From the NCBI GenBank assembly GCA_011032825.1, contig JAADJZ010000025.1, positions 587,249 to 651,248 of the forward strand: a DNA stretch of 64,000 nt. Reading direction: 5' to 3'. The notes below the pieces were generated by a model, which was not told where the DNA came from, did not search any database, and saw only the letters and a list, made by a program, of their open reading frames with translations. A program made the translations under genes and the position numbers. The stretch comes from Massariosphaeria phaeospora (taxonomy: Eukaryota; Ascomycota; Dothideomycetes; Pleosporales). This document shows, one piece after another, positions 41,950 through 64,000 of this stretch (position 1 is its first letter; every line of letters starts with the position of its first letter).

Positions 41950-44900
41950 ATAGCAAAGACAAATATTAAGTTCTAGCATTTTAAGCATCTAGCAAAGTAC
42001 TGCATAGCTATATGCAAAGAATGCAAGCATAGCGTGCTACCTAGCTATATCAAAAGTTACTTGCAACGCGCGCACAAAGTTAAGTAGAAGTAAGCTAAAA
42101 AAATAGCAAAGCGAGTGCGCAGCTAGCTAGGGCTAATAGAGTACGCTAGCGAGATTTAGGTGCTAATCTAGGTTGTCGCGCTAATTAGCTAGTTGCTAGT
42201 ATACTTAAACGAGCTGTTATGCTAGCTAGACGCAGCTAGCTGTAGCAAAGTATTTCAAAGCTAAAACGTTATAAAAAAGTATTAGCAACAGCTACACGAT
42301 TAGTTAGTAAAAAGCAAAAGCAGCTATTTTAGTCTAGCAGCGTAGAAAGAGATTTAGCTGCGCGTTAACAAAAGCTGCAAGCGCGTACACTGCTAGCAGC
42401 TATTAATTCAAAACCTAGAATCGCAGTATTTTAAGGTCTAGCTGCTCGAAGACAATCTAGAAGTAGTACCTATCGACAGCGAAGCAGCATAAACGCGTGT
42501 AAGCGAAGCAATAGCTAAAGCGTAAAAAAAAATTAAAAAGCGAGTAATTAGCACTATCTAGGCGAGCAAGCGCAACGAGGTTAACTCGTAAGTAAATCAA
42601 ACGTAGTAGCTGCTATACCTAGTAGGCATAAAGCAAGCGAATTTGCTAGCGTGTATTAAAAAGCTAGTAGCTAAGCTAAATCAAAGAAGCAACAACGAGG
42701 CTAAGTTAGTAGAAGCAGTAATCTAGAAAGCTATAGATAAGCTTACGCAGTTTAGCTAGGCGTTAGTAATTAAGCGCGTTAGCGTGTTCGTGCAGCTAGA
42801 AGCAATTTGTATTAAAAAGCACTAAACGCAGTACTAGCCGCTGCAGCTATACATAAATAAAAAAGCAATTGTTAAGCACACGCAGCTATAGTAGCAAGTG
42901 TTAATGTTTTTTGCGCGCACACAGAAAAAGCACGCGTAGAAAAGCTTGCAATACTAGTTTAAGCAACGGCAGCGCAAGGCATAAAAAGCGTTAGTCTACG
43001 AAGCAACAAAAACAGCAGCAGCAAAAGCCGCAAAGACAAACAAAAAAAAAAAAAAAAATAGACAATAAAATAGAAACGGATTAAGCAACAAAGGCAGCAC
43101 TTAATTAGAGCACCGCGAGCGCTAGGCTAAAGAGATTAAACAAGCTTTAAAAAGCGTGCTTAGAGTTTTGTATCGCGTTGCTTAACTACCGCATTACTTG
43201 CTAAAAGTACAATAGCTCGTTGGTGTGCGCGCTAGCGGTGCTAGGCGTTAAAAAAAAAAGCTAGAAAAAGCTAAAGCAGTATTCGCTAATATTGTTAGCT
43301 GTTATTAAAACTGCACGGTTTATAGTAGTGTAGCAGAAGCTAAAGCTATTAAGTGCAAACCTAGCAGATTCGCAAAGTAATAGTAACGAGGTAACAAACA
43401 ACTTCGACAATAGCGCGTACGACAGCAAAGCTAGCTTACGCTGCTATTTAAGAAAATGTTTGCAGCTAGTGCAGCACATAATAAACTAGTTTATAGTACG
43501 CAGCAGCTACGGGCTAATGTAGTAAATGCTAGATTTGCAAACGTACGAGCTTAAGATTTATTACAACACTACGTTGCGCAGGTATGTAGAGTAAACTAGC
43601 AATAAGCTGCTGTACAAAAAGCTACACTTTAGCATAGCGCAGTTTTGTAGCATAGTTTACAAGCTAGCAAGCGAGAGCTAGCAGCTGTTAACAAAAAAAC
43701 TGTTGTTTAGCAAAGCTACGCTTGTACCTGCCGTGCTATAGCAAAGCATACGCAATAACCTAACTAACAAGCAGCTAAAATAGAACTTTTTAAAAAACTA
43801 GCGCACGCAAATGCCTGTTAACGGCGAAAAGTAGCTGTTTAACTAAGTAAAGCAAGAAGCTAGCATTCGTAGCTAGTTTATAAAGCCTAAAAGCTAGTTA
43901 AGAGTAAACTAGCAAGTAGTAGAGTAGTACATAGATTAAGTAGTTAAGTTTTGCAAAAAGCTAGCAGTATTAATGCATATTAGCAGTAGCTAGCTAGCGC
44001 AAAAGCTAGAGATATTAAGCGTGCAGCATAGCAACACGGTGCAAAGCAGCTACTACAACGTATTTATCGAAAACAGCATAGTAGTGTTTGTAACGTAGTA
44101 CTACAAAAGCTACAACGTTAGCAGCAACGTTAAAATTATCTACTAGTATTTGCTGCGCAAAGTAAGCGAGCTAGTAGTGTAGTACATGTAGTTAGTGCTG
44201 CTATTCTAGCAGCAACTCAAAGCGTTAGTGTAAAAGAAAAAAGCAGTGTTGTTCTACATGTAGCTAGCTAATTCTAGCAACTGCAAGTAAACGACAAATT
44301 AACTTTGCAAAGCGTTAAAGCGCGAAAGCTAAATTGCTATAAGCTAAAAATAAACGTTTGCCAAGTACTACGAGATAGCGATTAGCATTAGCTAGCGATA
44401 TTTGCGTAGATCTACCGCGTTCTAGGCTAAGAAAAGAAAAAAGAAAAAAAAAACGAAAATACGGCAGAAGCGTTTATTGCTAATAAGTAAGCGAGCTATA
44501 CGTTGCACGTTGCTAGGCTAGTGTACGCGCAAGAAATTATAGAGCAAGCTAGCGCCGTAGCTAACAAGCAGCAGCAATTTCGAGCATCTAGCACTAATTA
44601 GCATCGATTTTTGAGCTTCTAGCTAGACGTTAACTAGAGCGAAAAAAGCAGAAAGCAAAAGCGAGCGCTGTTTGAGAGCAAAGCGAACGAAGCAAGAATC
44701 GATTAATAGCAGCAGCTAAAGAAAATAGATAGTAGCAAGCAGCTTAAGCGGATAATAAGCAACAAGGCCAAGTTCCGTAGCGTACAAAAAAAAGCTATTA
44801 ACGCTATTATAGTAGGCGAGAGCTTTGTCGTAGCTGTAATACTTACTAGCAGAAGCAAAAGCTTGTTGTTTATGTTGCTAGCGTTTGCAAAGCAAAGCAG

Positions 44901-46760
44901 CACTACTGTTGTTGTTGTACTATTAATTGCGTTACGCAGCGATATAAAGTAGCAATGCTAGAAGCTAAAAATATTGTATGTAAAGTAAAAGAGCTGCTAC
45001 TTGCTTAACGCTGCTGCCGTAGTGTTAGTAACGCTTAAGTTAGTAGTAGAAAAAGCGTTTACTACGTTTTTAAACTAGCTTTAAGCAACGCAGTAGCTAG
45101 ATTAGATTGTTATTAACAAGTGCTATATTGTGTTGAATTAGCAGTACACGTTTTGCAAGCAAATGCAGTAGCTAGGCAAGCTAGTAGCTGCAAAAACGCA
45201 AATAGTTATGTTAACAGCAACGTTGCTGCTAAGTAAAAAAAACGAGTTATTCTAGCGAATGCATTTTGAACAAGATTAGGTAAAAATGTTTAGAGTGCTA
45301 ATAGCGCAAACTAACATAGCGTATCGCATAGTTAAGCTAGGCAAGAAAGCGAAAAAGTAGAAAGCAAAAGCTATAGTGTTAAGAGCTGTAAAGCAAAAGC
45401 TGCGCAAGTATAAAACAAGCAAAATTATTGTGTACAGCAACTTAGTGCTTAAAGTTAAAGCGTTAGCAGCTAAGCTTAAATGCTAGGCGTATTACTACTA
45501 CGCAGTTAGCAAAGCAAGCATGTTAAAGAAGTTTATAGCTAGCTAACAGCGCATTATTGTTGCTACTAGCGCATTAAGCACAGGCGTTAACGTGCTTAAC
45601 ATTTAGTGCATTATTTACATTAACTAGCTGTTTAGCGTGTTAGAGTACGCGCAGGAAAGTAGTAAAGCTAAGCGAGATAAACTGCTAAGCAAAGCAATTA
45701 CAATCGTATAAAAAAGCGATTAACAAGTAGCTACTAACGCGCAAAGCGAAGCAAAGCAAGCGTTAGTACAATTGTACATAAAAAAAAGCAGTAGCGTACA
45801 GTGCCAAAAAGTAGTGTTAAACAAATATCTAAACTAGCAAAAAGCAAAGCGAGTAAAATGCAAAGAAAAAAAAAAAAAAAGTGTAACGTTTGTTAAAGAA
45901 AAAAAGCAAAGAAGCAAATAAATAAAAGTAGAAAAGAGAATAGCAAGGATTCTAGCAAGGTTAAAGAGATAAAAGCGAGAGAAAGCGTAGGCAAAAGCGA
46001 GAAAAAGAACGAGAAAAAAAAAAAGCGAAAAACGTTTAAGCAGCAGCAGCGAGAGCAACAAGGCTTACACTAAACGTTAATCTAGCAGCAACAGCACAAG
46101 TTTAAAAACGTTAAGTAGCTGCGTAGGCAGTTAGCGCAGTAAGCGAGCTAGTGCGAAATATGCAAAATAGTAAGTAACAAGTATAGCAACTACAACGTGT
46201 AGCAATGTAAGCAAGCAAAAAGCACACAAGTTAACAAAAGTATTACAGCAATAAAAAAAAAAATTAAGTTTAAAAATTATTTTAAGTGTTTTTAGTGCGA
46301 GGTGCCGCAGAAAATATGCTATTAGTAAAAAAGCAACAGCTGCAAAAAGTACAAGCGCAACAAAAAAAACAATTGCTAGTACAAAAGCGTATTAATAAGT
46401 AGCTTAATAGGCATAGCGTTGAAGTATTGCGAGATTAAGTTGCAGTAGCATGCGCAATTAGAAGCAATAAGCGTTAACAGCGCAAAACTAAAAAAAAGCG
46501 TTGTTAAGTATCTAAAAAAAAAGCGCGCACTTAAGACAGTAGAAAGTAATTAGTTAGTAAAAAAGTTCTGTTAGGTAACGTAGTTGTTAGCTAAGTAAGT
46601 AAAGCAATCTAGCGCACTGCAAGCATAGTAAGCGTAGTAATAAACAAGTAACGCTTGTATTTTACAAAAAGAAAAACGCTTAGCACTAGAAGCTAGAAAG
46701 CTTACTTTAGCGAGTATAAAAAATCTAACAAAAGCAACAACGACGTTAAAAAGCGCAAGC
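41950..46760 (+). pseudogene. Telomere-linked RecQ-type helicase gene, hypermutated
   Basis: Through many stops the + strand shows the fungal telomere-linked helicase layout. First comes a DUF3505-like zinc-finger region at ~41.98-42.45 kb (CIAICKECKHSVLPSYIKSY). Next is the FIVRSSYGLM / YELKIYYNTTLRRYVE region at ~43.5 kb. The helicase core follows. Walker A lies at 44,845-44,862 and now reads TSRSKS; a TGGGKS original needs three G to A changes. SLLFMLLAFA and VVVVLLIALRSDI follow. Motif II at ~45,115-45,126 reads NKCY where DECH is expected. VMLTATLLLS, RIIVATSALSTGV and the motif VI remnant AQESSKAKRD (45,649-45,679) come after. A Cys-bearing C-terminus (CFQCEVPQKIC-like) ends near 46.7 kb. 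Such genes sit at chromosome ends, and this one runs straight into a telomere array. The gene is dead, since ATP-binding and metal-binding residues are changed. Confidence 0.8.
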
Positions 46761-46830
46761 AGTGTTATATTACGTTACAAAACTTTAAACAGTTAGCACT
46801 ACTAAAACATCTTTAAACAAGCTAAAGTAG

Positions 46831-46931
46831 AGTTAGAGTTTTAGAGTTAGAGTTAGAGTTAGAGGTTAGAGTTAGAGTTAGAGTTAGAGTTAGAGTTAGA
46901 GTTAGAGTTAGAGTTAGAGTTAGAGTTAGAG
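46831..46931 (+). repeat. Interstitial telomere array 1 (TTAGAG form)
   Basis: About 17 hexamers, nearly all TTAGAG instead of TTAGGG, with one GG junction at 46,864. They separate the helicase pseudogene from the first retroelement and mark a former chromosome end. Confidence 0.9.
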
Positions 46932-47789
46932 TTGTATGTAAAGTAAAATAATTCGATTGAATTTAGTCTTTCTGCAAAGAAAAGTTGTTGAAATGCTTTA
47001 GTTTGCAAGATACTTTTCGTTTCTTGTTGTATCTACAGAAAGAAACTTATTAGAAATAAAAGAAAAGCTGTTTATATACATTAGAATTAGAGAGAAGTTT
47101 TTTTAAGTTGTTTACTTGCTGCGCTGTTAGAAGCTTAGGCTTTTAGCTGCTGCCTAGCTTTTTGCAAAAGCTAAGTGCGAGTAGAGAAGCTAAAACAATG
47201 CAAAACGTTGTGCTGTAGAACAAGCAGCTCTAAAAGTCTGTTAGTAATTAGTAGGTACTAGAGTTACTTAGAGTTTGAGTTAGAGTTAGCGCTTTAGCGC
47301 TAGGCTCTTACTTAAATCTTCTATTTCTAGAAACCGCAATAGTTAACCTAGATTAAAACAATACTTTTATATTACTAACAGACTTTTCTTACAAGCTAGC
47401 AGCTTTTTTTTGAAACAAGTTGTTTTTACGCGTAGTTGTTTGCTGCGCAAGTGTTTTCTTAGATTTTCAAGCGTCCGCGCCGTTGCTAGCACTTTTATTT
47501 GTTTATCTAAGTACTTTACAAGCGCAGCAGTTGTTTTGCTATTTTCTAGAGTTCTTGAATTGCAAAGGCAACGCTACTTTGCAACGCTTTTCTCTTAGAG
47601 AGAGTATTATACTCGAAAAAGCATGCGAAGCAGTAAAACTAGCAAAGGCAGCAACAGGTTTTATAGGTTTTACATTTTAAACTTAATTTAACCTCTGCGA
47701 CGTACTTCTCCCAAAGGAAGCGCATGTAGAAAAGAAAAAAAGAAACGAAAATGCTATGCGCTAAAGCTGCAACTGCTTGTTACTACAGC

Positions 47790-49735
47790 TTAGAGCGAAG
47801 AGTAAAATAATTTGGTATCTAGAAAAAACACATGTACTAACAACTTCTTAATGTTAGTTTCTTTAATTTCTTTATTAAAGATGCTTTGATTTACTGCTCG
47901 AACTAGATTCTACATGAATCTAGTTTGTTTTTTAGCAACGATACACTGCGGTAGGTACAGCAGGTTTAAAAGTTTAGCTTAAACTTATTCCAATCGCATG
48001 TCGTTTTAGATAGCGGAGAAAAAAACCTAGTCTTATACAAGGTTATATTTAGAAACGGCAATAATTGCATTACGCGCAACTCTAGTTTCTAGCCTAAAAC
48101 TAGAAAAGTACAATTGCTATTAAACCTGTTGTTTCTAAGAGTGTAACACTTGTTTTAGCTAGCCGCGCGCTTAAAGCTTTAACATAAATGCTGCTTTCTA
48201 TGTTAGAAAGTATATTTCTTTGTAGCATATTGCGCGGATCCGGCAAAGCTCGCTTTTAACTAGCTCTTTTTTAACTAAAGAAAAGTAGAAGCTTGCTTAT
48301 AAGAGGTATTAATAGTAGTTTAGCGCTTTGTTGTAGAGCGCGAAACATACTGCTGCTAACTTAGAGTGCGTATAGAAGCGTACGTTGAAAAACGTTTGTT
48401 CGTAAGCAAAGTGCGTTTACAAAATTTGCAAGCCTAAAACGCGAATAGCTTTGAGAGCCTTGTTAGATAGGTTAAGAACAAGAATGTCGTTAATATACTA
48501 ACAGTAAAGTTGAAGCGTATGTTGATAGAAGTATAGCTATTTGTAATAGGCTATAAAGAGATTTGCGAAAACAAAAGCACAATGTAACTTTATTAGAACC
48601 TCGTTAACTTAGCAAACCAATTTAGACTCAATTTGAAATAGCGCTTCGTGCTAGATGTATTTAGAAGCTTTGAGAATTTAGTTTCTAGTTTGCTTATTAT
48701 ACTAGTTTTTGTTTTTAAAAATAAACTAAAGAGCATGCATAAAATTTCTTTAACGAATATTCGTATACATGCTTGCAACGTCGCTAGTGTGTAGTCGCAT
48801 AAAAGTTAAGTTGCTATAGTTAAATTCTGCACCTTCTAAACACAAATTCCGGCTGCTCTCGCATATCTACGAGAAAAAGCGTTGAACTAGTAGTAGCATA
48901 GCGTGTAGTATCCTGCCTAGAGGTCCTAGCACATAAAAATGCATTAGTACAATAAGTCTAATTTTCTATAGGTTTTTGTAGATTTTTAGAATACTATAGA
49001 GAATTAGAATGTTTTTATTCGCATAAGCTAAACGCTAAAAACGTAATACTTGCTTCGTGTCTAGATGCGAGTAGTATAAGCCGTTTAAGCGCACACGAAG
49101 AAAATGTTGCTTAAAGTATTAAACAGCACCTCGATAGAAGTTAACAAACTCTACTTTTCTTTAGTGCTAAATTTAGATTTGTAGTATGTAAAAAAAAGCT
49201 TTTACTTGTGTCTTGTACTATTTACAAGTAACAATTAAAACTCTAAAGTTTTTGTTAGTAATTAGTGCTAGAAGCTAAGCTTTTAATAGCCAATCGCGTA
49301 GATTTTTTGAAAAAACTACGACTTAAAAGAGAGCGTTGTTTCTAGAGTTAGGTTAGAGTATAGGTTGCCCGTAAAGCGCACAGCGCAAGGCTTTTCTCTT
49401 AACTTAAATGCTGTTTGCAAACTAATCGTCGTTAATGCCTGTATTCTAGCTAGTTAATAGATACAAAATAAATTTTTGCTAGCTAAGCAGTACGTTTGTA
49501 CCGTTGCTCTAAAAATGCGTTATAAAACGACACTTCTAACTTAGTTATTTAAACTAGTCTAGCGCTACTTGTTAAGAAAGCAGCTTAAAAAACAAAAACT
49601 TTAGATTTACGCTAAGCGTATACTCAATGTTTATAAAGAGTTTAACACTATTAAGTTTGTGTACACTTAGGCGCTAGTTTATAAGCGTTTCAAACTAGTG
49701 CGCAAGCTAAGTGCGCTAGATGTACATTATTTAAA
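47790..49735 (-). pseudogene. Penelope-like reverse transcriptase remnant, unit 1
   Basis: Homologous to ORF2 of unit 4 and full of stops. At the position of the catalytic YIDD box the - strand now reads YIND, so a catalytic Asp has been changed to Asn by a G to A change. Confidence 0.8.
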
Positions 49736-49801
49736 ATAAAAAGTTTTAAAGTTAAAAGAACTCTAGAGGCAGCGCGCTGTTTGCATGTAGCAATAGTGCG
49801 T

Positions 49802-50735
49802 TTAGCGCTTCTTTTACTACTTTTTAAAAAAAGTGCCGCGTTTTTTGTTGCTTTCTTAGCGGCGCTTCGACACCTTAGCGGTGTTTTTTTTCTGCTAGTG
49901 TTTAGTCTTCGAGGAACTAGCTTTTTTTTAACCTTTTCTCGATTTCAGCTTAGCGCGCTTATTCTGCGTGAATTAGCGTTAGCGTTTGCTAATCTCTTTA
50001 ATAAACTTAGCTAAAGCTTTCTTGTTGCTAAGCAAGGCGCTAGTAGCTTTGACCTAAGCTTTTTTCTGCGTTGCTAATTGTTTTTTCTTAGTTTCAATTT
50101 GTCGGTATGCAGCGTTGGCTTTAATTAAAATAGTAGTTTTAACTAAGAATTTTTTGCACGGTTGATTTATTAGAATCGTAAAAGCCTTAAGGCTAATGTA
50201 ATTGTTATTTAATGCTAACTTTTAGCCGTTACAAAGAGCTTTAGTTTGAGCAACTAAATTGCACAATTGTTTAAAAATTTCAATTTTAGCTTTTTTAATC
50301 TTAATTATGCGTTTTAGTGCTTCTTTCTTTGATACTTTAAAAGCAAAGGAGAAATTCTTAGAGTTAAGTTGCTTGTATTTAGTAGCTAGTTTCGAAACTT
50401 AAATAAAAAGAGCTTAAAAAGATTTTAGTTTAGAAAAGTTAAAGTTTGTTTTTGCTAAAGAACTAGCGATGGACTTTGCAAAAAAATCTTTTTATTCTTT
50501 TAAAACAACAAAAGCGTTAGCTATTTTAAAGTGCGCTTAAACGATTTGTTTAAGTAGCGTTTTCGTTTGTTTTTAAACAAAGGCGAGAACAAGCGTTACA
50601 AGCTAAGCAGTAGATTTAGCGTTAACAATTCGTTTAACAAAGCTAGCAATAAGCTTATTAGCAGTTTTTAAATTAAACTTAGCTGTTTAAGTGTTAATAG
50701 TAGAAAAAGCTTTAACACTTAACATTTTTTTTATT
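49802..50735 (-). pseudogene. Element ORF1 remnant, unit 1
   Basis: Homologous to the basic ORF1 protein gene of unit 4, with the stop codon at the same place (49,802) and many internal stops. Confidence 0.75.
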
Positions 50736-50830
50736 AGCTTATTTTTAGTTAGACGGCTGCGGTAGGACTAAAGTCGTAATGCTTGTAACATAGTAAAGTA
50801 CTAAAAGAATTAAAGTAGATAAAGTTAGAG

Positions 50831-51240
50831 TTGTATGTAAAGTAAAATAATTTAATTAGATTTAGTTTTTCTGCAAAGAAGAGTTGTTGAAATGCTTTAG
50901 TTTGCAAGACACTTTTCGTTTCTTGTTGTATCTACAAAAAGAAACTTATTAGAAATAAAAAAAAAGCTATTTATATACATTAAATTTAGAGAGAAGTTTC
51001 TCTAAGTTGTTTACTTGCTGCGCTGCTAGAAGCTTAGGTTTCTAGCTGCTGCCTAGCTTTTGCAAAAGCTAAGTGCGAGTAGAAAAGCTAAAACAATGCA
51101 AAACGTTGTGCTATAGAACAAGCAGCTCTAAAAGTCTGTTAGTAATAGGCAGGTACTAGAATTACTTAAAGTTTGAGTTAGAGTTAGCGCCTTAGCGCTA
51201 GACTCTTACTTAAATCTTTTATTTCTAGAAACCGCAATAG
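50831..51240 (+). repeat. Right pseudo-LTR of unit 1
   Basis: A 410-bp direct repeat of the unit's left end (46,932-47,341), preceded by a short telomere-like GTTAGAG. It ends exactly where telomere array 2 begins. Confidence 0.85.
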
Positions 51241-51300
51241 TTAGAGTTAGAGTTAGAGTTAGAGTTAGAGTTAGAGTTAGAGTTAGAGTTAGAGTTAGAG
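51241..51300 (+). repeat. Interstitial telomere array 2 (TTAGAG form)
   Basis: Ten exact TTAGAG hexamers between units 1 and 2. Confidence 0.95.
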
Positions 51301-52157
51301 TTGTATGTAAAGTAAAATAATTCAATTGAATTTAGTCTTTCTGCAAAGAAGAGTTGTTGAAATGCTTTAGTTTGCAAGACACTTTTCGTTTCTTGTTGTA
51401 TCTATAGAAAGAAACTTATTAGAAATAAAAGAAAAGCTGTTTATATACATTAGATTTAAAAAGAAGTTTTTTTAAGTTGTTTACTTGCTGCGCTGTTAGA
51501 AACTTAGGTTTCTAGCTGCTACTTAGCCTTTGCAAAAGCTAAGTGCAAGTAGAGAAACTAAAATAATGCAAAACGTTGTGCTGTAAAACAAGCAGCTTTA
51601 AAAGTTTGTTAGTAATAGGCAGGTACTAGAATTACTTAAAGTTTAAGTTAGAGTTAGCGCCTTAGCGCTAAGCTCTTACTCAAATCTTCTGTTTCCAAAA
51701 ACCGCAATAGTTAACCTAGATTAAAACAATACTTTTATATTACTAACAGACTTTTCTTACAAGCTAGCAGCTTTTTTTTGAAACAAGTTGTTTTTACGCG
51801 TAGTTGTTCGCTGCGCAAGTGTTTTTTTAAATTTCTAAGCGTTCGCGCCGTTGCTAGCACTTTTATTTGTTTATTTAAGTACTTTACAAGTGCAGCAGTT
51901 GTTTTGCTGTTTTTTAAAGTTTTTAAATTGCAAAAGCAACGCTACTTTGCAATGCTTTTTCTCTAAAAAGAGTATAATACCTAAAAAAGCATGCAAAGCA
52001 GTAAAACTAGCAAAAGCAGCAACAGGTTTTACGAGTTTTACATTTTAAACTTAACTTAACTTTTGCAACGCACTTCCCCTAGGGGAAGCGCATGCAAAGA
52101 AAAAAAAAAAAACAAAAATGCTATGCGCTAAAGCTGCAACCTAGATAACTAAACAAG

Positions 52158-54100
52158 CTTAAAGCAAAGAGTAGAATAATCTAGTATCTAAAAAAAACAC
52201 ATTTACCAACAGCTTTTTAATGTTAGTTTTTTTGATTTTTTTAAAAAAGATGCTTTGATTTACCGCCTAAACGAGATTTTACATAAATTTTGTTTGTTTT
52301 TTGGCAACAATACACTGCGGTGGGTATAGTAAGTTTAAAAGTTTAGCTTAAACTTATTCTAATCGCATGTCGTTCTAGATAGCGAAGAAAGAAACTTGGT
52401 CTTATACAAAGTTGTATTTAGAAACGGCAATAATTGCATTACAAGCAACTCTAGTTTTTAGCTTAAAACTTAGAAAGTACGATTGCTATTAGACCTGCTG
52501 TTTTTAAAAGTGCAACACTTGTTTTAGCTAGCTGCGCGCTTAAAGCTTCAACATAAATATTGCTTTTTATGTTAAAAAGTATATTTTCTTGTAGCATATT
52601 GCGCGGATCCGGCAGAGCTCGCTTTTAATTAACTTTTTTTTAACTAAAAAAGAGTAGAAGCTTGCTTATAGAAAGTATTAGTAGTAGTTAAGTGCTTTGT
52701 TAAAAAGTGCAAAACACACTGCTGCTAACTTAAAGTGCGTATAAAAGTGTACGTTAAAGAACGTTTATTTGTAAGCAAAGTGCGTTTACAAAATTTGCAA
52801 GCCTAAAACGCAAATAGCTTTAAAAGCCTCGTTAGATAGGTTAAAAACAAGAATATTATTAATATACTAGCAATAAAACTAAGGCGTATGTTGATAAAAG
52901 TATAGCTATTTGTAATAGGCTATAAAGAGATTTGCAAAGACAAAAGCGCAATGTAACTTCATTAAGACCTCGTTTACTTAGCAAACTAATTTAAACTTAA
53001 TCTAAAATAGCGCTTCGTGCTAAATAAAATTGAAAGCTTTAAAAATCTAGTTTCTAGTTTGCTTATTATACTAGTCGCTGTTTTTAAGAATAAACTAAAG
53101 AGCATGCACGAAATTTTTTTAATAGATATTTGTATACATGCTTGCAACGTTGCTAGTGTGCAGTTGCACAAAAGTTGTGTTGCTACTATTAAAAACTACA
53201 ACTTTTAAACACAAATTCTAGCTGCTTTTGCATATCTACGAAAAAAAGCGTTAAACTAGTAGTAGCATAGCGTGCAGTATTTTGCCTAGAAGTTTTAACA
53301 CATAGAAATGCATTAGTACAATAAGCTTAATTTTTTATAAGCTTTTGTAAATCTTGAGAATGCTATAAAAAATTAAGATTGCTTTATTTGCATAAGCTAA
53401 ACGCTAAAAACGTAATACTCGCTTCGTGTTTAAATGCGAGTAGTATAAGCTGTTTTAACGCACGCAAAAAAGTTGTTGCTTAAAATGTTAAACAGCACTT
53501 TAATAAAAATTAACAAACTCTGCTTGTTTTTAGTGCTAAATTTAAATTTGTAGTATGTAAAAAAAAGCATTTACTTATGTCTCGTACTACTTACGAGTAA
53601 CAACTAAAACTTTAAAGTTTTTGTTAGTAATTAGTGCTAAAAGCTAAGCTTCTAATAGCTAATCTCGCAGATTTTTTAAAAAAACTACGACTTAAAAAAA
53701 AGCGTTGTTTTTAGAGTTAGGTTAAAGTATAGGTTGCCTGTAAAGCGCACGGCGCAAGGCTTTTTTTCTAACTTAAATGCTGTTTGCAAATCAATCGTCG
53801 TTAATGCTTGTATTCTAGCTAGTTAATAAATACAAGATAAATTTTTGCTAGCTAAGTAGTACGTCTGTACCGTTGCTTTAAAAATGCGTTATAAAACGAC
53901 ACTTTTAACTTAGTTATTCAAACTAGTCTAGCGCTACTTGTTGAAAAAGCGGCTTAAAAAATAAAAACTTTAGATTTACGCTAAGCGTGTACTTAATGTC
54001 TATAGAAAGTTTAACACTATTAAGCTTGTGTACACCTAGGCGCTAGTCTATTAACGTTTTAAACTAGTGCGCAAGCTAAGTGCGCTAGATATACATTATT
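52158..54100 (-). pseudogene. Penelope-like reverse transcriptase remnant, unit 2
   Basis: Homologous to ORF2 of unit 4. The catalytic box reads YINN, so both Asp codons have become Asn codons. Many stops are present. Confidence 0.8.
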
Positions 54101-54169
54101 TAAAATAAAAAGTTTTAAAGTTAAAAGAACTTTAGAGGCAGCGCGCCGTTTGCATGTAGCAATAGTGCA

Positions 54170-55102
54170 TTTAGCGCTTTTTCTACTGCTTCTTAGAAAA
54201 AGCGCTGCGTTTTTTGTTGCTTTTTTAGCAGCGCTTTAACACTTTAGCAGTGTTTTTCATTTAGTTTTTAGTTTTCAAAGGACTAGCTTTTTTTTGACTT
54301 TTTCTTAATTTCGGCTTAGCGCGCTTATTTTGCGTGAATTAGCGTTGGCGTTTGCTAATCTCTTTAATAAACTTAGCTAAAGCTTTCTTGTCGCTAGGCA
54401 AGGCGCTAGTAGCTTCGACCTAAGCTTTCTTCTGCGTTGCTAATTGTTTTTTTTTAGTTTTAATTTGTTGGTATGCAGCGTTGGCTCTAATTAAAATAGT
54501 AGTTTTAACTAAAAATTCTTTGCACAGTTAGTTTATTAGAATTGTAAAAGCTTTAAGGCTAATGTAATTGTTACTTAATGCTAACTTTTAGCCGTTACAA
54601 AGGGCCTTAGTTTAAGCAACTAAATCGCACAATCGTTTAAGAATTTCGATTTTAGCTTTTTTAATCTTAATTATGCGTTCTAGTGCTTTTTTTTTTAATG
54701 CTTTAAGAGCGAAGGAGAAATTCTTAGAGTTAAGTTGCTTGTGTTTAGTAGCTAGTTTTAAGACTTAAATAAAAAAAGCTTAAAAAGATTTTAGTTTAAG
54801 AAAGTTAAAGTTTGTTTTTGCTAGAGAACTAGCAATAGACTTTGCAAAGAAATTTTCTTATTTTTTTAAAACAACAAAGGCGTTAGCTATTTTAAAGTGC
54901 GCTTAAACAATTTGTTTAAGTAGCGTTTTCGTTTATTTTTAAACAGAAGCGAAAACAAGCGCTACAAGCTAAGTAGTAGATTTAGCGTTAACAATTTGTT
55001 TAACAAAGCTAGCGATAAGCTTATTAGTAGTCTTTAGATTAAACTCAGCCGTCTAAGTGTTAATAGTAGAAAAAGTTTTAACACTTAACATTTCTTTTAT
55101 TA
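54170..55102 (-). pseudogene. Element ORF1 remnant, unit 2
   Basis: Homologous to ORF1 of unit 4, with the end codon conserved at 54,170 and many internal stops. Confidence 0.75.
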
Positions 55103-55196
55103 GCTTATTCTTAGTTAGACAGCTGCGGTAGGACTAAAGTTGTAATACTTGTAACATAGTAAAGTACTAAAGAAATTAAAGTAAATAAAGTTAGAG

Positions 55197-55606
55197 TTGT
55201 ATGTAAAGTAAAATAATTTAATTAAATTTAGTCTTTTTGCAAAGAAGAGTTGTTGAAATGCTTTAGTTTGCAAGACACTTTTCGTTTTTTGTTGTATCTA
55301 CAAAAAAAAACTTATTAAGAATAAAAAAAAAGCTGTTTATATACATTAGATTTAGAGAGAAGTTTTTTTAAGTTGTTTACTTGCTGCGCTGCTAGAAGCT
55401 TAAGTTTCTAGCTGCTGCTTAGCTTTTGCAAAAGCTAAGTGCGAGTAGAGAAGCTAAAACGATGCAAAACGTTGTGCTGTAAAACAAGCAGCTCTAAAAG
55501 TCTGTTAGTAATAAGCAAGTACTAGAATTACTTAGAGTTCGAGTTAGAGTTAGCGCCTTAGCGCTAGGCTTTTACTCAAATCTTTTATTTCTAAAAACCG
55601 CAATAG
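55197..55606 (+). repeat. Right pseudo-LTR of unit 2
   Basis: A 410-bp direct repeat of the left end of the same unit, with the same length and end point as in unit 1. Confidence 0.85.
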
Positions 55607-55660
55607 TTAGAGTTAGAGTTAAAGTTAGAGTTAAAGTTAAAGTTAGAGTTAGAGTTAGAG
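55607..55660 (+). repeat. Interstitial telomere array 3 (TTAGAG and TTAAAG)
   Basis: Nine hexamers, six TTAGAG and three TTAAAG, so some repeats have lost a second G. Confidence 0.95.
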
Positions 55661-56517
55661 TTGTATGTAAAGTAAAATAATTTAATTAGATTTAGTCTTT
55701 CTGCAAAAAAGAGTTGTTGAAATGCTTTAGTTTGCAAGACACTTTTCGTTTCTTGTTGTATCTACAAAAAGAAACTTATTAAAAATAAAAAAAAAGCTGT
55801 TTATATACATTAAATTTGAAGAGAAGTTTTTTTAAGTTGTTTACTTGCTGCGCTGCTAGAAGCTTAAGTTTCTAGCTGCTACTTAGCTTTTGCAAAAGCT
55901 AAGTGCGAGTAAAAAAGCTAAGACAATGCAAAACGTTGTGCTGTAGAACAAGCAGCTTTAAAAGTCTGTTAGTAATAAGCAAGTACTAGAATTACTTAAA
56001 GTTTAAGTTAGAGTTAGCGCCTTAGCGCTAGGCTTTTACTTAAATCTTTTATTTCTAGAAACCGCAATAGTCGACCTAGATCGAAATAATACTTTTATAT
56101 TACTAACAAACTTTTTTTATAAGCTAGCAGCTTTTTTTTAAAACAAGTTGTTTTTACGCGTAGTTGTTTGCTGCGCAAGTGTTTTTTTAGATTTCCAAGC
56201 GTCCGCGCCGTTGCTAGCACTTTTATTTGTTTATCTAAGTACTTTACAAGTGCAGCAGTTGTTTTGCTGTTTTTTAAAGTTTTTAAATTGCAAAGGCGAT
56301 GCTACTTTGCAACGCTTTCTCTCTAAAGAGAGTATAATACTTAAAAAAGCATGCAAAGCAGTAAAACTAGCAAAAGCAGCAACAAGTTTTACGAGTTTTA
56401 CATTTTAAACTTAACTTAACTTTTGCGACGCACTTTCCCTAAAGGAAGCGCATGCAAAGAAAAAAAAAAAAACAAAAATGCTATGCGCTAAAGCTGCAAC
56501 TTAGATAACTAAACAAG

Positions 56518-58460
56518 CTCAAAGCAAAAAGTAAAATAATCTAGTATCTAAAAAAAACACATTTACCAACAGCTCTTTAATGTTAGTCTTTTTAATTTTT
56601 TTAAAAAGAATGCTTTGATTTACTGCCTAAACGAGATTCTACATAGATCTCGTTTGTTTTTTAGCAACGATACACTGCGGTAGGTACAGTAGGTTTAAAA
56701 GTTTAGCTTAAACTTATTTCAATCGCATGTCGTTTTAGATAGCGAAAAAAGAAACTTGGTTTTATATAAAGTTGTATTTAGAAACGGCAATAATTGCATT
56801 ACAAGCAACTCTAGTTTTTAGCCTAAAACTTAAAAAGTACAATTGCTATTAGACCTGCTGTTTTTAAAAGTGCAACACTTGTTTTAGCTAGCTGCGCGCT
56901 TAAAGCTTTAACATAAATATTGCTTTTTATATTAAAAAGTATATTTTTTTGTAGCATATTGCGCGAATCCGGCAGAGCTCGCTTTTAATCAACTTTTTTT
57001 TAACTAAAAAAAAGTAAAGGCTTGCTTATAGAAAGTATTAGTAGTAGTTAAGCGCTTTGTTAAAAAGTGCAAAACATACTGCTGCTAATTTAGAGTGCGT
57101 ATAAAAGCGTACGTTGAGAAACGTTTGTTTGTAAGCGAAGTGCGTTTACAGAATTTGCAAGCCTAAAACGCGAATAGTTTTAAAAGCCTCGTTAAATAAG
57201 TTAAAAACAAAAATATTATTAATATACTAGTAATAAAACTAAAGCGTATGTTGATAAAAGTATAGCTATTTGTAATAGGCTATAAAGAGATTTGCAAAAA
57301 CAAGAGCGCAATGTAACTCTATTAAGACTTTGTCTACTTAGCAAACTAATTTAGACTTAATCTAAAATAGCGCTCTGTGCCAAATAAAATTAAAAGCTTT
57401 AAAAATCTAGTTTCTAGTTTGCTTATTATACTAGTTGCTGTTTTTAAGAATAAACTAAAAAGCATGTACAAAATTCTTTTAACAGATATTTGTATACATG
57501 CTTGCGACGTTGCTAGTGTGCAGTCGCACAGAAGTTGTGTTGCTACTATTAAAAACTGCAACTTTTAAACACAAATTTTAGCTGCTTTCGCATATCTACG
57601 AGAAAAAGCGTTAGACTAGTAGTAGCATAGCGTGTAGTATTCTGCCTAAAAGTCTTAACACATAGAAATGCATTAGTACAATAAGCTTAATTTTTTATAA
57701 GCTTTTATAAATTTTAAAGATGCTATAGAGAATTAGAATTGCTTTATTTGCATAAGCTAAACGCTAAAAACGTAATACCTGCTTTGTATTTAAATGCGAG
57801 TAGTATAAGCTGTTTTAACGCACGCAAAGAAGTTGTTGCTTAAAGTGTTAAACAGCACTTTAATAGAAGTTAACAAACTCTACTTGTTTTTAGTGCTAAA
57901 TTTAAATTTGTAGTATGTAAAAAAAAGCATTTACTTGTGTCTCGTACTACTTACGAGTAACAACTAAAACTCTAAAATTTTTGTTAGTAATTAGTGCTAA
58001 AAGCTAAGCTCTTAATAGCTAATTTTGCAGATTTTTTAAAGAAACTACGACTTGAAAAAGAGCGTTGTTTTTAAGGTTAAGTTAAAGTATAGGTCGCCTG
58101 TAAAGCGCACAGCGCAAGGCTTTCTTTTTAACTTAAATGCTGTTTGCAAACTAATCGTTGTTAATGCTTGTATTCTAGCTAGTTAATAAATACAAAATAA
58201 ATTCTTGCTAGCTAAGCAGTACGTTTGTACTATTGCTTTAAAAATGCGTTCTAAAACAACACTTCTAACTTAGTTATTTAAACTAGTTTAGCGCTACTTG
58301 TTAAGAAAGCGGCTTAAAGAACAAGAACTTTAGATTTACGCTAAGCGTGTACTTAATGTTTATAAAAAGTTTAACACTATTAAGCTTGTGTACACTTAGG
58401 CGCTAGTTTATCAACGTTTTAAACTAGTGCGCAAGCTAGGTGCGCTAAATGTACATTATT
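56518..58460 (-). pseudogene. Penelope-like reverse transcriptase remnant, unit 3
   Basis: Homologous to ORF2 of unit 4. The catalytic box reads YINN and stops are frequent. Confidence 0.8.
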
Positions 58461-58529
58461 TAAAATAAAAAGTTTTAAAGTTAAAAGAACTCTAGAGGCA
58501 GCGCGCTGTTTGCATGTAGCAATAGTGCA

Positions 58530-59461
58530 TTTAGCGCTTTTTTTACCGCTTCTTAAAAGAAGCGCTGCGTTTTTTGTTGCTTTCTTAGCAGCGCTTTAAC
58601 ACTTTAGCAGTGTTTTTCGTCTAGTTTTTAGTCTTCGAGAAACTAGCTTTTTTTTAACTTTTTCTCGATTTCGGCTTAGCGCGCTTATTCTGCGTGAATT
58701 AGCGTTGGCGTTTGCTAATCTCTTTAATAAACTTAGCTAAAGCTTTCTTGTCGCTAGGCAAGGCGCTAGTAGCTTTAACCTAAGCTTTCTTCTACGTTGC
58801 CAATTGTTTTTTTTTAGTTTTAATTTGTCGGTATGCAGCGTTGGCTCTAATTAAAATAGTAGTTTTAACTAAAAATTCTTTGCACGGTTAGTTTATTAGA
58901 ATTGTAAAAGCTTTGAAGCTAATGTAATCGTTACTCGATGCTAACTTTCAGCCGTTACAAAGGGCTTTAGTTTAAGCAACTAAATCGCACAATCGTTTAA
59001 GAATTTCGATTTTAGCTTTTTTAATTTTAATTATGCGTTCTAGTGCTTCTTTTTTTAATGCCTTAAAAGCGAAGAAGAAATTCTTAAAGTTAAGTTGCTT
59101 GTATTTGGTAGCTAGTTTTGAGACTTAAACAAAAAGAGCTCGAAAGAATTTTAGTTTAAAAAGGTTAAAGTTTGTTTTTGCTAAAAGACTAGCGATAGAC
59201 TTTGCAAAGAAATTTTTTTATTTCTTTAAAACAACAAAGGCGTTAGCTATTTTAAAGTGCGCTTAAACAATTTGTTTAAGTAGCGTTTTTGTTTGTTTTT
59301 AAACAAAGGCGAGAACAAGCGCTACAAGCTAAGCAGTAGATTTAGCGTTAACAATTCGTTTAACAAAGCTAGCAATAAGCTTATTAGCAGTTTTTAGATT
59401 AAACTCGGCCGTCTAAGTGTTAATAGTAGAAAAAGCTTTAACACTTAACATTTCTTCTATT
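58530..59461 (-). pseudogene. Element ORF1 remnant, unit 3
   Basis: Homologous to ORF1 of unit 4 with the same end codon (58,530) and many stops. Confidence 0.75.
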
Positions 59462-59577
59462 AGCTTATCCTTAGTTAGACAGCTGCGGTGGAACTAGAGT
59501 TGTAATGCTTGTAACATAGTAGAGTACTAAAGAAATTAAAGTAGATAAAGTTAGAGTTGTATGTAAAGTAAAATAAT

Positions 59578-59649
59578 TTAGGGTTAGGGTTAGGGTTAGG
59601 GTTAGGGTTAGGGTTAGGGTTAGGGTTAGGGTTAGGGTTAGGGTTAGGG
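59578..59649 (+). repeat. Interstitial telomere array 4 (intact TTAGGG)
   Basis: Twelve unmutated TTAGGG hexamers between units 3 and 4. They mark the sharp border between hypermutated and nearly unmutated DNA. Confidence 0.98.
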
Positions 59650-60060
59650 TTGTATGTAAAGTAAAATGATTCGATTGGATTTGGTCTTTCTGCAAAGAAG
59701 AGTCGTCGAAATGCCTTGGTTCGCAAGACACCTTTCGTTTCTTGTTGTATCTACAGAAAGAAACTCATCAGGAATGAGAGGAGAGCTGTTTATATACATT
59801 GGAATCGGGGGGAAGTTCCTCCGAGTTGTCCACTTGCTGCGCCGCCGGAAGCTTGGGCTTTCGGCTGCTGCCTAGCCTTTGCAGAGGCCAAGTGCGAGTA
59901 GAGGAGCCAAGACGATGCAGGACGTTGTGCTGTAGAACGGGCAGCCCTGAAAGTCTGTTAGTAATTGGTAGGTACTAGGGTCACTTAGGGTTCGGGTTTA
60001 GGGTTAGCGCCTTGGCGCCAGGCCCTTACCCAAATCTTCTGTTTCCAGAAACCGCAACGG
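59650..60060 (+). repeat. Left pseudo-LTR of unit 4
   Basis: This ~410-bp repeat contains the hammerhead-like core (on the - strand), an internal telomere-like seed (TTAGGGTTCGGGTTTAGGG, ~59,986-60,004) and, next to it, the small palindrome GCGCCTTGGCGC. It is repeated at 63,544. Confidence 0.88.
59708..59775 (-). ncRNA. Hammerhead-ribozyme-like motif in left pseudo-LTR
   Basis: On the - strand CUGAUGA (59,771-59,765) is followed by GUUUCUU, a 14-nt loop and AAGAAAC, a perfect 7-bp stem II, then GAAA (59,736-59,733). A 9-bp stem III with wobble pairs can form between 59,733-59,725 and 59,717-59,709, leaving UC at the cleavage position (59,709-59,708). Stem I is weak: only the first two pairs form. 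The core and stem II are convincing; activity is uncertain. Confidence 0.55.
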
Positions 60061-60506
60061 TCGACCCAGATCGAAACAATACTTTCATATTACTAACAGA
60101 CTTTTCCCACAAGCTAGCAGCTTTCTTTTGAAACAAGTTGTTCTCACGCGTAGTTGTCTGCTGCGCGAGTGTTTCCCTAGATTTCCAAGCGTCCGCGCCG
60201 TTGCTAGCACTTTCATTCGTCTATCCAAGTACTTCACAAGTGCAGCAGTCGTTCCGCCGCTTCCTAGGGTCCTTGAATCGCAAAGGCGACGCCACTCCGC
60301 GACGCCCTCCCCCTAGAGAGAGTATAACACCCGAAGAGGCATGCAGAGTAGTGAAACTAGCAAGGGCAGCGACAGGTCTTACAGGTCTTACATCTCAAAC
60401 CTAACTCGTCCTCCGCGACGCACCTCCCCCAGGGGAAGCGCATGCAGAGAAAGAGAAAGGAACGAGAATGCCATGCGCTGAGGCTGCAACTGCTTGTTAC
60501 TACAGC
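60061..60506. other. 3' non-coding part of unit 4
   Basis: This lies between the ORF2 stop and the left pseudo-LTR. Both strands hold open stretches of 60-100 codons (for example + strand 60,138-60,404) that recur in the other units. No family resemblance supports a gene. Confidence 0.4.
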
Positions 60507-62446
60507 TCAGAGCGGAGAGTAGGATAATCCGGTATCCAGGGAAGACACATTTACCGACAGCTCTTTAATGTCGGTCTCTTCGATTTCCTTGTAAAGGATG
60601 CTTCGATTTACCGCCCGAACGAGGTCCCACATGGATCTCGTCCGTTTTTTGGCAACAATACACTGCGGTGGGTACGGTAGGTCTGAGGGTCCAGCTCGAA
60701 CCCATTCCGATCGCATGTCGTTCCAGATGGCGGAGGAAGAGACCTGGTCCCATACAGGGTTGTATTTAGAGACGGCAATGATTGCATCACGCGCAACCCT
60801 AGTTTCCAGCCCGGAACTTGGGAAGTACGATCGCCATTGGACCTGCCGTCCCTAGGAGTGCAACACCTGTTTTGGCTAGCCGCGCGCTCGGAGCCTCGAC
60901 ATAAATGTCGCTTTTCATGTTAGAAAGTATATCTCCTTATAGCATATTGCGCGGATCCGGCAGAGCTCGCCTTTGACCAGCCCTTTCTTAACCGAAGAAG
61001 GGTGGAGGCTTGCCCATGGGAGGTGTTGATGGTGGTTTAGCACTTTGTTGAAAGGTGCGAAACACACCGCCGCCGACTCGGGGTGCGTATAGAAGCGTAC
61101 GTCGAGGAACGAGAGTTCGTAGGCGAAGTGCGTCCACAGGATTTGCAGGCCTGGAACGCGGATGGCTTCGGGAGCCTCGTCGAGTGGGTCAAGGACGAGA
61201 ATATCATCAATATACCGGCGATAAAACCGAGGCGTACGTTGATGAAAGTATAGCCATTCGTGGTGGGCCATGAAGAGATTTGCGAAGACAGGGGCACAAT
61301 GTAACCCCATTAGGACCCCGTCGACTTGGCAAACCAATTTAGGCCCAATCTGAAATAGCGCTCCGTGCCAAATGAAATCGGAAGCTTCGAGAATCCAGTT
61401 TCTAGTCTGCTCATCATACCAGTCCTTGTTTTCAAGAATAAACCGAAGGGCATGCACGAAATCCCTCCAACAGATGTTCGTATACATGCTTGCGACGTCG
61501 CCAGTATGGAGTCGCATGGAAGTTGTGTTGCTACAATTAAAATTTGCGACTTCTGAGCACAGATTCCGGCTGCTCTCGCATATCCACGGGAAAGAGCGTT
61601 AGACCGGTAGTAGCATAGCGTGCAGTATCCTGCCCAGAGGTCCCAGCACATAGGAATGCATTGGTACGATAGGCCTGATCTTCCATGGGTTTTTGTGGAT
61701 CTTTGGGATACCATGGAGGATCGGGATGTCCTTATTCGCATAAGCTGAACGCCAAAAACGTAATACCCGCTTCGTGTCCAGATGCGGGTAATATGAGCCG
61801 TCCCGATGCACACGAAGGAGTTGATGCTCAAGGTGTTGGACAGCACTTTGATGGAAGTCATCGAACTCTGCTTTTCCTCGGTGCTGAATTTGAATTTGTG
61901 GTATGTGGAGGAAAGCTTCCACTTGTGTCTCGTACTACTCACGAGTGACGACCGAAACCCCAAGGTTTTTGTTAGTGATTAGTGCTAGAAGCTGAGCTCC
62001 TGATAGCCAATCGCGCAGATTTTTCGGAGGGACTACGACTCGAAAGAGAGCGTCGTCCCTAGGGTTAGGTCGGGGTATAGGTCGCCCGTGAAGCGCACAG
62101 CGCAAGGCCTTCCTCCTAACCTAAATGCTGTTTGCGAACTAATCGTCGTCAATGCCTGTGTCCCAGCCGGTCAACAGATACGGGATAGATCTGTGCCAGC
62201 CGAGCGGTACGTCTGTACCGTTGCTCCAAAAATGCGTCATAAACGACACTTCCGACTTAGTTGCTCGAACTAGTCCAGCGCTACTTGTTGGTCAAGCGGC
62301 TCGGAGAACAGAAACTTCAGATTCACGCTAAGCGTGTACTCAATGTCCATGGAGAGTCTGACACCATCGAGTTTGTGTACACCTAGGCGCTAGTCCATAA
62401 GCGTCTCGAACCAATGCGCAAGCCAGGTGCGCCAGATGTACATCAT
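60507..62446 (-). pseudogene. Penelope-like reverse transcriptase (ORF2), lightly damaged
   Basis: About 646 codons read from 62,446 to 60,507. N-terminal domain: WRTWLAHWFETLMD and VRLSMDIEYTLSVNLKFLFS. Reverse transcriptase domain: ITNKNLGVSVVTRE, ILHGIPKIHKNPWKIRPIVP, GDVASMYTNI with the first catalytic Asp (motif A), VLMGLHCAPVFANLFMAHHE (motif B), RRYIDDILVLDP (motif C at 61,215-61,204), SFLDVRFYT, LPWASLHPSSVKKGLVKGEL. The thumb-like C-terminus contains KKRTRSMWDLVRAVNRSIL. No GIY-YIG endonuclease is visible. Nine in-frame stops (seven TAG, one TAA at 61,599-61,601, one TGA at 60,915-60,917), mostly at expected Trp codons, and a 1-nt loss near 62,242 break the frame. The catalytic residues are intact. 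It would copy its RNA onto a chromosome end. Confidence 0.88.
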
Positions 62447-62517
62447 TTGGGATGAAAGGTTCTGAAGTTGGAAGAACTCCAGAGGCAGCGCGCCGTTTGC
62501 ATGGGGCAATGGTGCAT

Positions 62518-63447
62518 TTAGCGCTTCTTCTGCTGCTTCTTGGAGGAAGTGCCGCGTTTTTTGTCGCTTCCTTGGCGGCGCTTCGACACCTTGGCGGTGT
62601 TCTTCGTCTGGTTTTTGGTCTTCGAGGGACCAGCCCTTCTTTGACCTTTTCCCGATTTCGGTTTAGCCTGCTTATCCTTCCTAGATTGTTGCTGGCGTTT
62701 GCCGATTTCCTTGATAAACTCGGCCAAAGCTTTCTTGTCGCTAGGCAGGGCGCTAGTAGCTTCGACCTGAGCTTTTTTCTGCGTTGCCGATCGTTTTTTC
62801 TTGGTTTCGATTTGTCGGTAGGCAGCGTTGGCTCTAATTGAAATGGTTGTTTTGACCAATGATTCTTCGCACGGTTGGTTCATCAGGAGCGTAAAAGCCT
62901 CGAGGCTGATGTGGTCGTCATCCGCTGCTGATTTCCAGCCGTCGAGGAGAGCCTTGGTCTGCGCGTCTGGATCGCACAATTGTTCAAGAATTTCGATCTC
63001 GGCTTTCTTGATTTCAATCATGCGTTCCAGCGCTGCTTTCTTTGATGCCTTAAGAGCTGAGGAGAAGTCTTTGGGAGCGAGTTGCCTATGTTCGGTGGCT
63101 AGTCTCGAGACTTGAACAGAGAGAGCTCGGAGGGATTTTAGTTCAGGAAGATTGAAGTTTGTTTTTGCTAAAGGGTTGGCAATGGACTTCGCAAGGGAGT
63201 TTTTCTATTCTTTCAAGACAACAATAGCGTTGGCCATCTTAAGGTGCGCTTGAACAATTTGTTCAAGTAACGTCTTCGTTCGTTCCTGAACAGGGGCGGG
63301 AACAAGCGCCACGAGTTGAGCGGTGGATTTGGCGTTGACAATCCGTTTGACAAAGCTGCCGATAAGCTCATCGGCAGTTTTCAAATTGAACTCGGCCGTC
63401 TGGGTGTTGATGGTGGAAGAGGCTTCAACACTAGACATTTCATCCAT
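62518..63447 (-). pseudogene. Element ORF1: basic coiled-coil protein with one stop
   Basis: One frame runs 63,447-62,518 (309 residues) with a single TAG at 63,205-63,207. It starts MDEMSSVEASSTINTQTAEF. The middle is helical and Lys/Glu/Leu-rich (LERMIEIKKAEIEILEQLCD), suggesting a coiled coil. The last ~90 residues are Lys/Arg/Ser/Gln-rich and end SSKKQQKKR, suitable for nucleic-acid binding. I recognise no known domain and no zinc knuckle. ORF1 precedes ORF2 by 71 bp in a different frame. By position it may act as the RNA-binding partner of the reverse transcriptase, which is inference. Confidence 0.7.
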
Positions 63448-63543
63448 TGGCTCATCCTGAGTCGGACGGCTAGGGTGGGACTAGGATCGTGGTGCTTGTG
63501 ACATGGTAGGGTACCAAAGGAATCGAGGTGGATAGGGTTAGGG

Positions 63544-63893
63544 TTGTATGTAAAGTAAAATGATTCGATTGGATTTGGTCTTTCTGCAAAGAAGAGTCGT
63601 CGAAATGCCTTGGTTCGCAAGACACCTTTCGTTTCTTGTTGTATCTACAGAAAGAAACTCATCAGGAATGAGAGGAGAGCTGTTTATATACATTGGAATC
63701 GGGGGGAAGTTCCTCCGAGTTGTCCACTTGCTGCGCCGCCGGAAGTTTGGGCTTCGGCTGCTGCCTAGCCTTTGCAGGGGCCAAGTGCGAGTGGAGGAGC
63801 CAAGACGATGCAGGACGTTGTGCTGTAGAACGGGCAGCCCTGAAAGTCTGTCAGTAATTGGTGGGTACTAGGGTCACTTAAGGTTCGGGTTTA
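63544..63893 (+). repeat. Right pseudo-LTR of unit 4, truncated into the telomere
   Basis: About 350 bp nearly identical to 59,650-60,000, with only a handful of differences. It stops at its own internal TTTAGGGTTAG seed, after which terminal TTAGGG repeats continue. The last ~60 bp present in the left copy are missing. Confidence 0.9.
63602..63669 (-). ncRNA. Hammerhead-ribozyme-like motif in right pseudo-LTR
   Basis: Identical in its core to the motif at 59,708-59,775: CUGAUGA at 63,665-63,659, the same 7-bp stem II and GAAA. It would lie near the 5' end of the element RNA. Confidence 0.55.
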
Positions 63894-64000
63894 GGGTTAG
63901 GGTTAGGGTTAGGGTTAGGGTTAGGGTTAGGGTTAGGGTTAGGGTTAGGGTTAGGGTTAGGGTTAGGGTTAGGGTTAGGGTTAGGGTTAGGGTTTAGGGT
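63891..64000 (+). repeat. Terminal telomere repeats (TTAGGG)n
   Basis: About 18 TTAGGG hexamers run to the end of the window, with one TTTAGGG variant at the very end. The G-rich strand is the + strand, so this is a right-hand chromosome end. Confidence 0.98.

Follow-up and report, generated by a model that had tools for sequence, protein, structure and literature searches.

Stacked copies of a retroelement family, very likely Penelope-like, joined to telomere repeats at contig ends of Massariosphaeria phaeospora

The window analysed here is a 64,000-nt stretch of DNA from the ascomycete Massariosphaeria phaeospora (Pleosporales). It occupies the right-hand end of contig C18 (651,248 bp) in an assembly of 42.08 Mb and 51 contigs, and it ends where the contig ends. 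A sterol gene of the host has its best named matches in ascomycetes, led by Lophiotrema nucula at 75%. Its last 17 kb (positions 46828-64000) consist of five telomere-hexamer arrays with four head-to-tail retroelement units between them, all on the minus strand. We conclude, with a probability of about 0.86, that these units represent a Penelope-like family residing at contig ends, whose reverse transcriptase (RT) most likely reverse-transcribes the element RNA directly at the telomeric 3′ overhang. The array is real and well supported, and an element of this kind has already been reported in another ascomycete. The family bears on how Penelope-like elements (PLEs) without a nuclease find telomeres and prime on them: it provides a fixed box and 3′ register, a present-day copy whose RT frame is open, and layers legible from the innermost outward. 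Its main value lies in this unusually readable record of chromosome-end growth; the layering of repeat-induced point mutation (RIP) and the direct repeats at the unit ends (pseudo-long terminal repeats, pLTRs) go beyond an earlier, sequence-only reading of the same DNA.

Stacked units and their junctions with telomere repeats

The innermost spacer (46828..46933, plus strand; TTAGAG x17, 17.2 copies) adjoins a shared subtelomeric block. It is followed by unit 1 (46934..51238, minus), a spacer of 10.7 TTAGAG copies (51239..51302, plus), unit 2 (51303..55604, minus), a spacer of 9.7 mutated telomere hexamers (55605..55662, plus), unit 3 (55663..59577, minus), a spacer of unmutated TTAGGG x12 (59578..59651, plus; 12.3 copies), unit 4 (59652..63885, minus) and the terminal array of 20.2 copies at the contig end (63878-64000, entered as a feature at 63891..64000, plus). 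TTAGAG rather than TTAGGG predominates in the three inner spacers, and the sequence TTAGGGTTAGGG was counted 27 times against 0.01 expected from shuffles. The hexamer arrays that the sequence-only reading had seen at the unit junctions are borne out, with the terminal array as a fifth. Its four head-to-tail units of about 4.3 kb also hold as to number and arrangement, but the lengths from unit 1 to unit 4 are 4.3, 4.3, 3.9 and 4.2 kb, and unit 3 is 5′-truncated, its first base corresponding to reference base 321. Aligned to unit 4, the 3′ ends of the units lie at 46934, 51303, 55663 and 59652; the 5′ part of unit 1 runs into a 406-bp pLTR ending at 51238.

A search of the assembly with the full protein of the second open reading frame (ORF2), with all 54 first-look candidates scored, gave 58 matches on 16 contigs (C2, C8, C11, C12, C13, C18, C21, C24, C26, C27, C29, C31, C32, C46, C50 and C51). 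All 58 are at most 31 kb away from a contig end, C46 measuring 10.8 kb as a whole, and in all 58 the RNA 3′ end points inward, on the minus strand at right ends and on the plus strand at left ends (C2, C29, C46 and C50). The orientation toward the centromere proposed from the window is borne out in all 58, and copies lying mostly away from telomere repeats, which were looked for, did not appear, none being away from contig ends. The DNA search returned at least 21 matches on 13 contigs (13 of 17 candidates scored), and these 21 are likewise at ends and within 31 kb. The contig edge falls in or near the element on C26, C27 and C32 (right) and on C2, C29, C46 and C50 (left), so that the true end is not seen there. 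At least 12 contigs end in eight or more clean hexamers (100 of the 101 pattern matches listed), and a unit lies directly beneath the array in 8 of the 12 listed with clean terminal arrays. Clean TTAGGG arrays occur at right contig ends only (reverse count 0), apparently a peculiarity of the assembly.

The two ends of the element behave differently at these junctions. In 27 of 32 element rows the 3′ end passes into telomere hexamers at one fixed base (...TTTACATAC, then AA, C or a mutated form); of the other five, two share a pLTR with the next body, one (C46c) is broken by an insertion and two reach the limit of the stretch compared. Of 44 pLTR ends identified by motif search, 29 are followed by a spacer of 36-127 nt, 13 by a short telomere-complementary box and two by unrelated sequence. 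The 5′ ends vary over the whole element: telomere repeats adjoin 22 of the 32, a few after some other bases, while seven are cut by a contig edge, one runs through a shared pLTR and two adjoin subtelomere. Units 1 and 2 begin at the same point (TATTGCGG; 51238 and 55604) despite belonging to different subfamilies, possibly because of a recurrent stop of copying. Within 27 spacers of at least eight hexamers, 34 of 108 hexamers on the older side, next to the older unit or subtelomere, are not 6 nt long, against 2 of 108 on the younger side. The simplest reading of this one-sided irregularity is that telomerase capped each new end and that the next copy was primed on the regular overhang.

Mutation layers and the order of the units

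Units 1-3 carry the mutations C>T and G>A and have a GC content of 0.31-0.33, against 0.51 in unit 4, which is free of such mutation; TA/AT is about 2.1 in units 1-3, while unit 4 has 0.83 and the genic part of the window 0.78. The CA context is highest in most units and CT usually lowest, and in C13 and C21 the CC context equals or exceeds CA. The spacers are affected as well, the change being mostly from CCCTAA to CTCTAA (237 CTCTAA, 62 CCCTAA, 11 CTTTAA, 3 CCTTAA and 1 other). From this pattern we infer that the process is RIP. A second, divergent family of Penelope type, to which one of the ORF2 matches belongs (C2:12081-13853), has a long copy of 2.75 kb (C2:12115-14869) that is 5′-truncated, lies between mutated telomere spacers and has a GC content of 0.49; elsewhere it is represented only by an 82-bp piece with the exact 3′ end (C31:310583-310664), which lies between telomere arrays, with unit x on one side and unit b on the other. 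A process dependent on a long repeat would be expected to leave this family, as observed, without AT enrichment.

The mutation load is layered. Each of the five clean copies (C8, C18 unit 4, C26t, C31t and C32) is the outermost unit at its own end, and the outermost unit is the least mutated in all seven stacks that could be ranked. Because RIP makes no transversions, these were used to compare neighbours in 11 spacer-separated pairs. The distances are 0.93% (units 1/2), 0.03% (2/3) and 1.41% (3/4) on C18; 1.54% (x/b) and 0.41% (b/t) on C31; 0.00% (a/b) and 0.18% (b/t) on C26; 0.59% for C51 a/t, 0.64% for C2 2/3, 0.04% for C11 x/t and 2.80% for C46 b/c. Together, RIP load and spacer polarity make it likely that each chromosome end records alternating additions by telomerase and retroelement.

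The same pairs bear on the strongest alternative, in which retrotransposition merely seeded a few copies and the stacks were then amplified by recombination, through unequal exchange or break-induced copying between ends. Such amplification would fit the three pairs that are near-identical by transversions (C18 2/3, C26 a/b and C11 x/t), the common 5′ end of units 1 and 2, the subtelomeric block common to several ends, and the similar distal junction of the C21 and innermost C11 copies. It accounts poorly for the other 8 of 11 neighbour pairs, whose members differ in subfamily (though in C26 b/t the difference is only some three changes), for 5′ ends that are mostly different, even between the clean and near-identical C8 and C31 copies, and for the one-sided irregularity of the spacers; we consider it unlikely.

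Several observations nonetheless weigh against direct copying onto the telomere. The near-identical pairs, with the common 5′ end of units 1 and 2, make local duplication possible at those places. The outermost units of C11, C12, C13, C24 and C51 are heavily mutated, so that outermost does not mean clean. No unit lies under the terminal array at the telomeric ends of C3, C5, C21 and C45, C21 having a copy 12 kb inside. The 5′ end of that copy (573240-574393) adjoins subtelomere and not telomere, as does that of the innermost C11 copy (767005-770067; 27 kb in); these two we regard as buried or rearranged ends.

The ORF2 region, encoding the RT (60507..62662 in unit 4, minus), contains 50-58 stops in units 1-3 and stops with a frame change in unit 4, so all four window copies are broken; in the C32 copy the frame is open over 718 codons. 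The ratio of nonsynonymous to synonymous substitution rates (dN/dS) between C32 and C18 unit 4 is 0.21 (657 codons, nine more being skipped for stops), and against the same unit C8 gives 0.21 and C31t 0.23, which indicates purifying selection on ORF2 between subfamilies. The C8, C31t and C32 copies differ from each other by transitions only, and the values inside this group (0.59 and 1.84) are based on few, RIP-like changes. This selection, and the confinement of the element to ends, might suggest that the host retains it for telomere maintenance and that it is no parasite. We regard this as quite improbable: a self-propagating element would also show purifying selection, most copies bear heavy RIP-type mutation, and four of the at least 12 contigs ending in ordinary TTAGGG arrays have no unit beneath. 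HeT-A and TART replace telomerase in Drosophila, whereas ordinary TTAGGG arrays are kept here.

Reverse transcriptase and known relatives

The RT domain of ORF2 is telomerase-like; R2 and L1 are present in the list of structural matches, ranked below telomerases. The motifs IPKIHK, GDVASMYTNI and YIDD, called Penelope-like in the sequence-only reading, were found in unit 4. Protein search reaches the frog proteins P0110 (E 2.8e-6) and P0109, which we take to be of Penelope type and with which the RT motifs align. ORF2 ends after the RT, with no further domain, where P0110 goes on with a C-terminal region that is presumably a GIY-YIG nuclease; an RT protein lacking a nuclease, as first proposed, agrees with this. 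Pfam and NCBIfam show no nuclease in ORF2, but they show none in P0110 either, for which PDB gave no match, so the silence of these libraries is by itself no evidence for an absent nuclease in ORF2.

The family is very likely Penelope-like. The earlier assignment of the RT holds in that Penelope-type is the best placement for this telomerase-like domain. The Penelope label is drawn from the telomerase-like fold, the pLTRs and, in part, our reading of the frog proteins; that no relative is named Penelope counts against it. The competing assignment, to a telomere retrotransposon of the long interspersed nuclear element (LINE) type whose RT merely resembles Penelope, is less probable still than host maintenance. 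It is opposed by the matches to P0110 and P0109, by the lack of any LINE name among 110 protein matches (only four of which bear a species name), and by the pLTR direct repeats and tandem copies sharing a pLTR, which are described traits of PLEs.

Relatives of the RT bear the names Ascochyta, Cordyceps, Aspergillus, Pochonia, Metarhizium and Diaporthe, which suggests that such elements may be commoner in ascomycetes than annotated. The RT tree has a single row with a basidiomycete name, P0113 (Microbotryum), and places it outside the clade to which the element's RT belongs. Most of the listed RT relatives come from single contigs of about 3-4 kb, roughly one unit, as if assemblies broke at the pLTR or telomere repeats.

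Coprina of basidiomycetes is an endonuclease-deficient telomeric PLE, and HeT-A/TART of Drosophila and MoTeR of Magnaporthe form stacks at chromosome ends by RNA copying onto the end, with 5′ truncation, using RTs of LINE type. The likeness of our element to Coprina and to Athena of bdelloid rotifers is one of architecture and location. Athena has no nuclease after the RT, lies at chromosome ends and carries telomere repeats on its truncated 5′ end. The available text of PMC3846280 gives the last two traits as marks of nuclease-less PLEs, the only PLEs that fungal genomes are said there to contain. Penelope elements are listed in Macrophomina (PMC6829926, available text) and near Agaricus telomeres (PMC7473861, available text).

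The supposition that no ascomycete family had been described is refuted by the relatives with ascomycete names and by 'family 4' of Mycosphaerella graminicola (Zymoseptoria tritici), reported in 2014 as telomere-localised and putatively Penelope-like (PMC4522978). According to the available text of that source, with which we compare by description only, family 4 is subtelomeric only (26 of 41 ends), has telomere hexamers at a 3′ end that points away from the telomere, and forms truncated tandem copies, with RIP-type transitions in all repeat families of that genome, all as in the present ascomycete. It differs in its length of 3.4-3.5 kb, the units in the window measuring about 3.9-4.3 kb, and in having 1-3 hexamers at the 3′ end, against spacers of 36-127 nt here; pLTRs, ORF1, spacer polarity and layering are not mentioned in that text. 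A repeat pipeline lists only one Penelope match in Mycosphaerella graminicola (PMC7181583, available text). In the available texts on such elements, no description was found of spacer polarity, of a fixed internal telomere-complementary box or of RIP layering. An assembly artefact, with tandem units arising from collapsed or misjoined repeats, is the least probable explanation: C2, C26, C27, C29, C32 and C50 begin or end inside a unit and clean arrays stand at right contig ends only, but misassembly of a single repeat would not account for most units, spacers and 5′ ends each being distinct in sequence, and the Mycosphaerella organisation is similar (PMC4522978).

The pLTRs, the telomere-complementary box and a proposed cycle

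Full units are flanked by the pLTRs, direct repeats that are about 350-530 bp long. In unit 4 the 5′ pLTR (63546..63885, minus) directly repeats the 3′ end of the unit, and the 3′ pLTR (59652..59992, minus) is directly followed by telomere repeats; one pLTR is common to two copies on C24, and likewise on C2. At the pLTR/body junction of unit 4 lies the telomere-complementary box AACCCTAACCCTATCC (63530..63545, minus), a putative priming or template box. After the pLTR the box measures exactly 11 nt in 12 of 13 cases and is one base short in the other, against 36-127 nt for the spacers, and this fixed length suggests that it may be an internal start site.

The transcript would start in a pLTR and extend toward the centromere, crossing the body and the 3′ pLTR and entering sequence complementary to the telomere. 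CCCUAA after the pLTR, from a genomic spacer or the 11-nt box, would then pair with the TTAGGG overhang, where the RT would start; the readable 3′ ends do join telomere repeats at one base. Copying would stop at variable points, the outcome being the variable 5′ truncation observed. Telomerase would next put hexamers on the new end, as the one-sided spacer irregularity suggests. Repetition would build the stack serially, old inside and young outside, and subfamilies do alternate outward. In sexual cycles RIP, to judge from the type of mutation, would ruin the older copies together with the buried spacers, in which CCCTAA is changed to CTCTAA, and would leave the terminal array clean, as it is found.

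More tentatively, the 11-nt box 5′-AACCCUAACCCUAUCC-3′ could be the element's own template, comparable to that of telomerase RNA, at which the telomerase-related RT docks the telomere overhang; we hold this possible but doubtful. It draws on the internal initiation shown for a lizard PLE, the Anolis Poseidon element PAc. According to the available text of PMC11167929, reverse transcription of PAc is initiated internally in the RNA, past the pLTR, at an AC-rich stretch 111-118 bp into the ORF where insertion ends map, whereas the counterpart proposed here lies before ORF1 and is telomere-complementary. PAc also has pLTRs, tandem copies and a hammerhead motif near the pLTR/ORF junction (a candidate only in our element), but, unlike it, encodes a GIY-YIG nuclease and has AT-rich DNA as its target (PMC11167929). 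If this role of the box is true, each copying round of a stack's RNA would restart exactly at the pLTR/telomere boundary, a telomeric counterpart of internal initiation in the Anolis element, and telomerase and retroelement would alternate in building the chromosome end on one 3′ overhang.

A candidate hammerhead-like motif (CTGATGAG...CGAAA...TTTC) is present in both pLTRs of unit 4 (63602..63665 in the 5′ and 59708..59771 in the 3′ pLTR, both minus), with a stem II of 7 bp, a stem III of 9-10 bp and a stem I of only about 2 bp. None of 1500 shuffles matches the core, the descriptor having been written after the motif was seen; the Rfam hammerhead type III model scores 13.5 bits on the pLTR (E 7.4; threshold 48.5), an Rfam scan of 18 kb gave no match at E<=1, and the lowest-energy fold of the pLTR is a hairpin that competes with the core. 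The pLTR also contains TATATAAA (63683..63690, minus), a possible promoter element. The ORF1 region (62518..63480, minus) is interrupted and has a basic C terminus; its homologue in P0049 is the N-terminal part of that protein, fused there to the RT. An open frame of 122 aa lies between ORF2 and the 3′ pLTR in the C32 (unit bases 3488-3853) and C8 (3496-3861) copies.

Inward of the array, the AT-rich subtelomeric block (41446-46830) is common to the ends of C3, C5, C8, C12, C13, C21, C26, C27 and C45, and the point at which it is cut off before telomere or element differs between ends. Farther inward, a 350-aa frame (7614-8666, plus) resembles what we take to be a DDE-type transposase of the Pogo kind.

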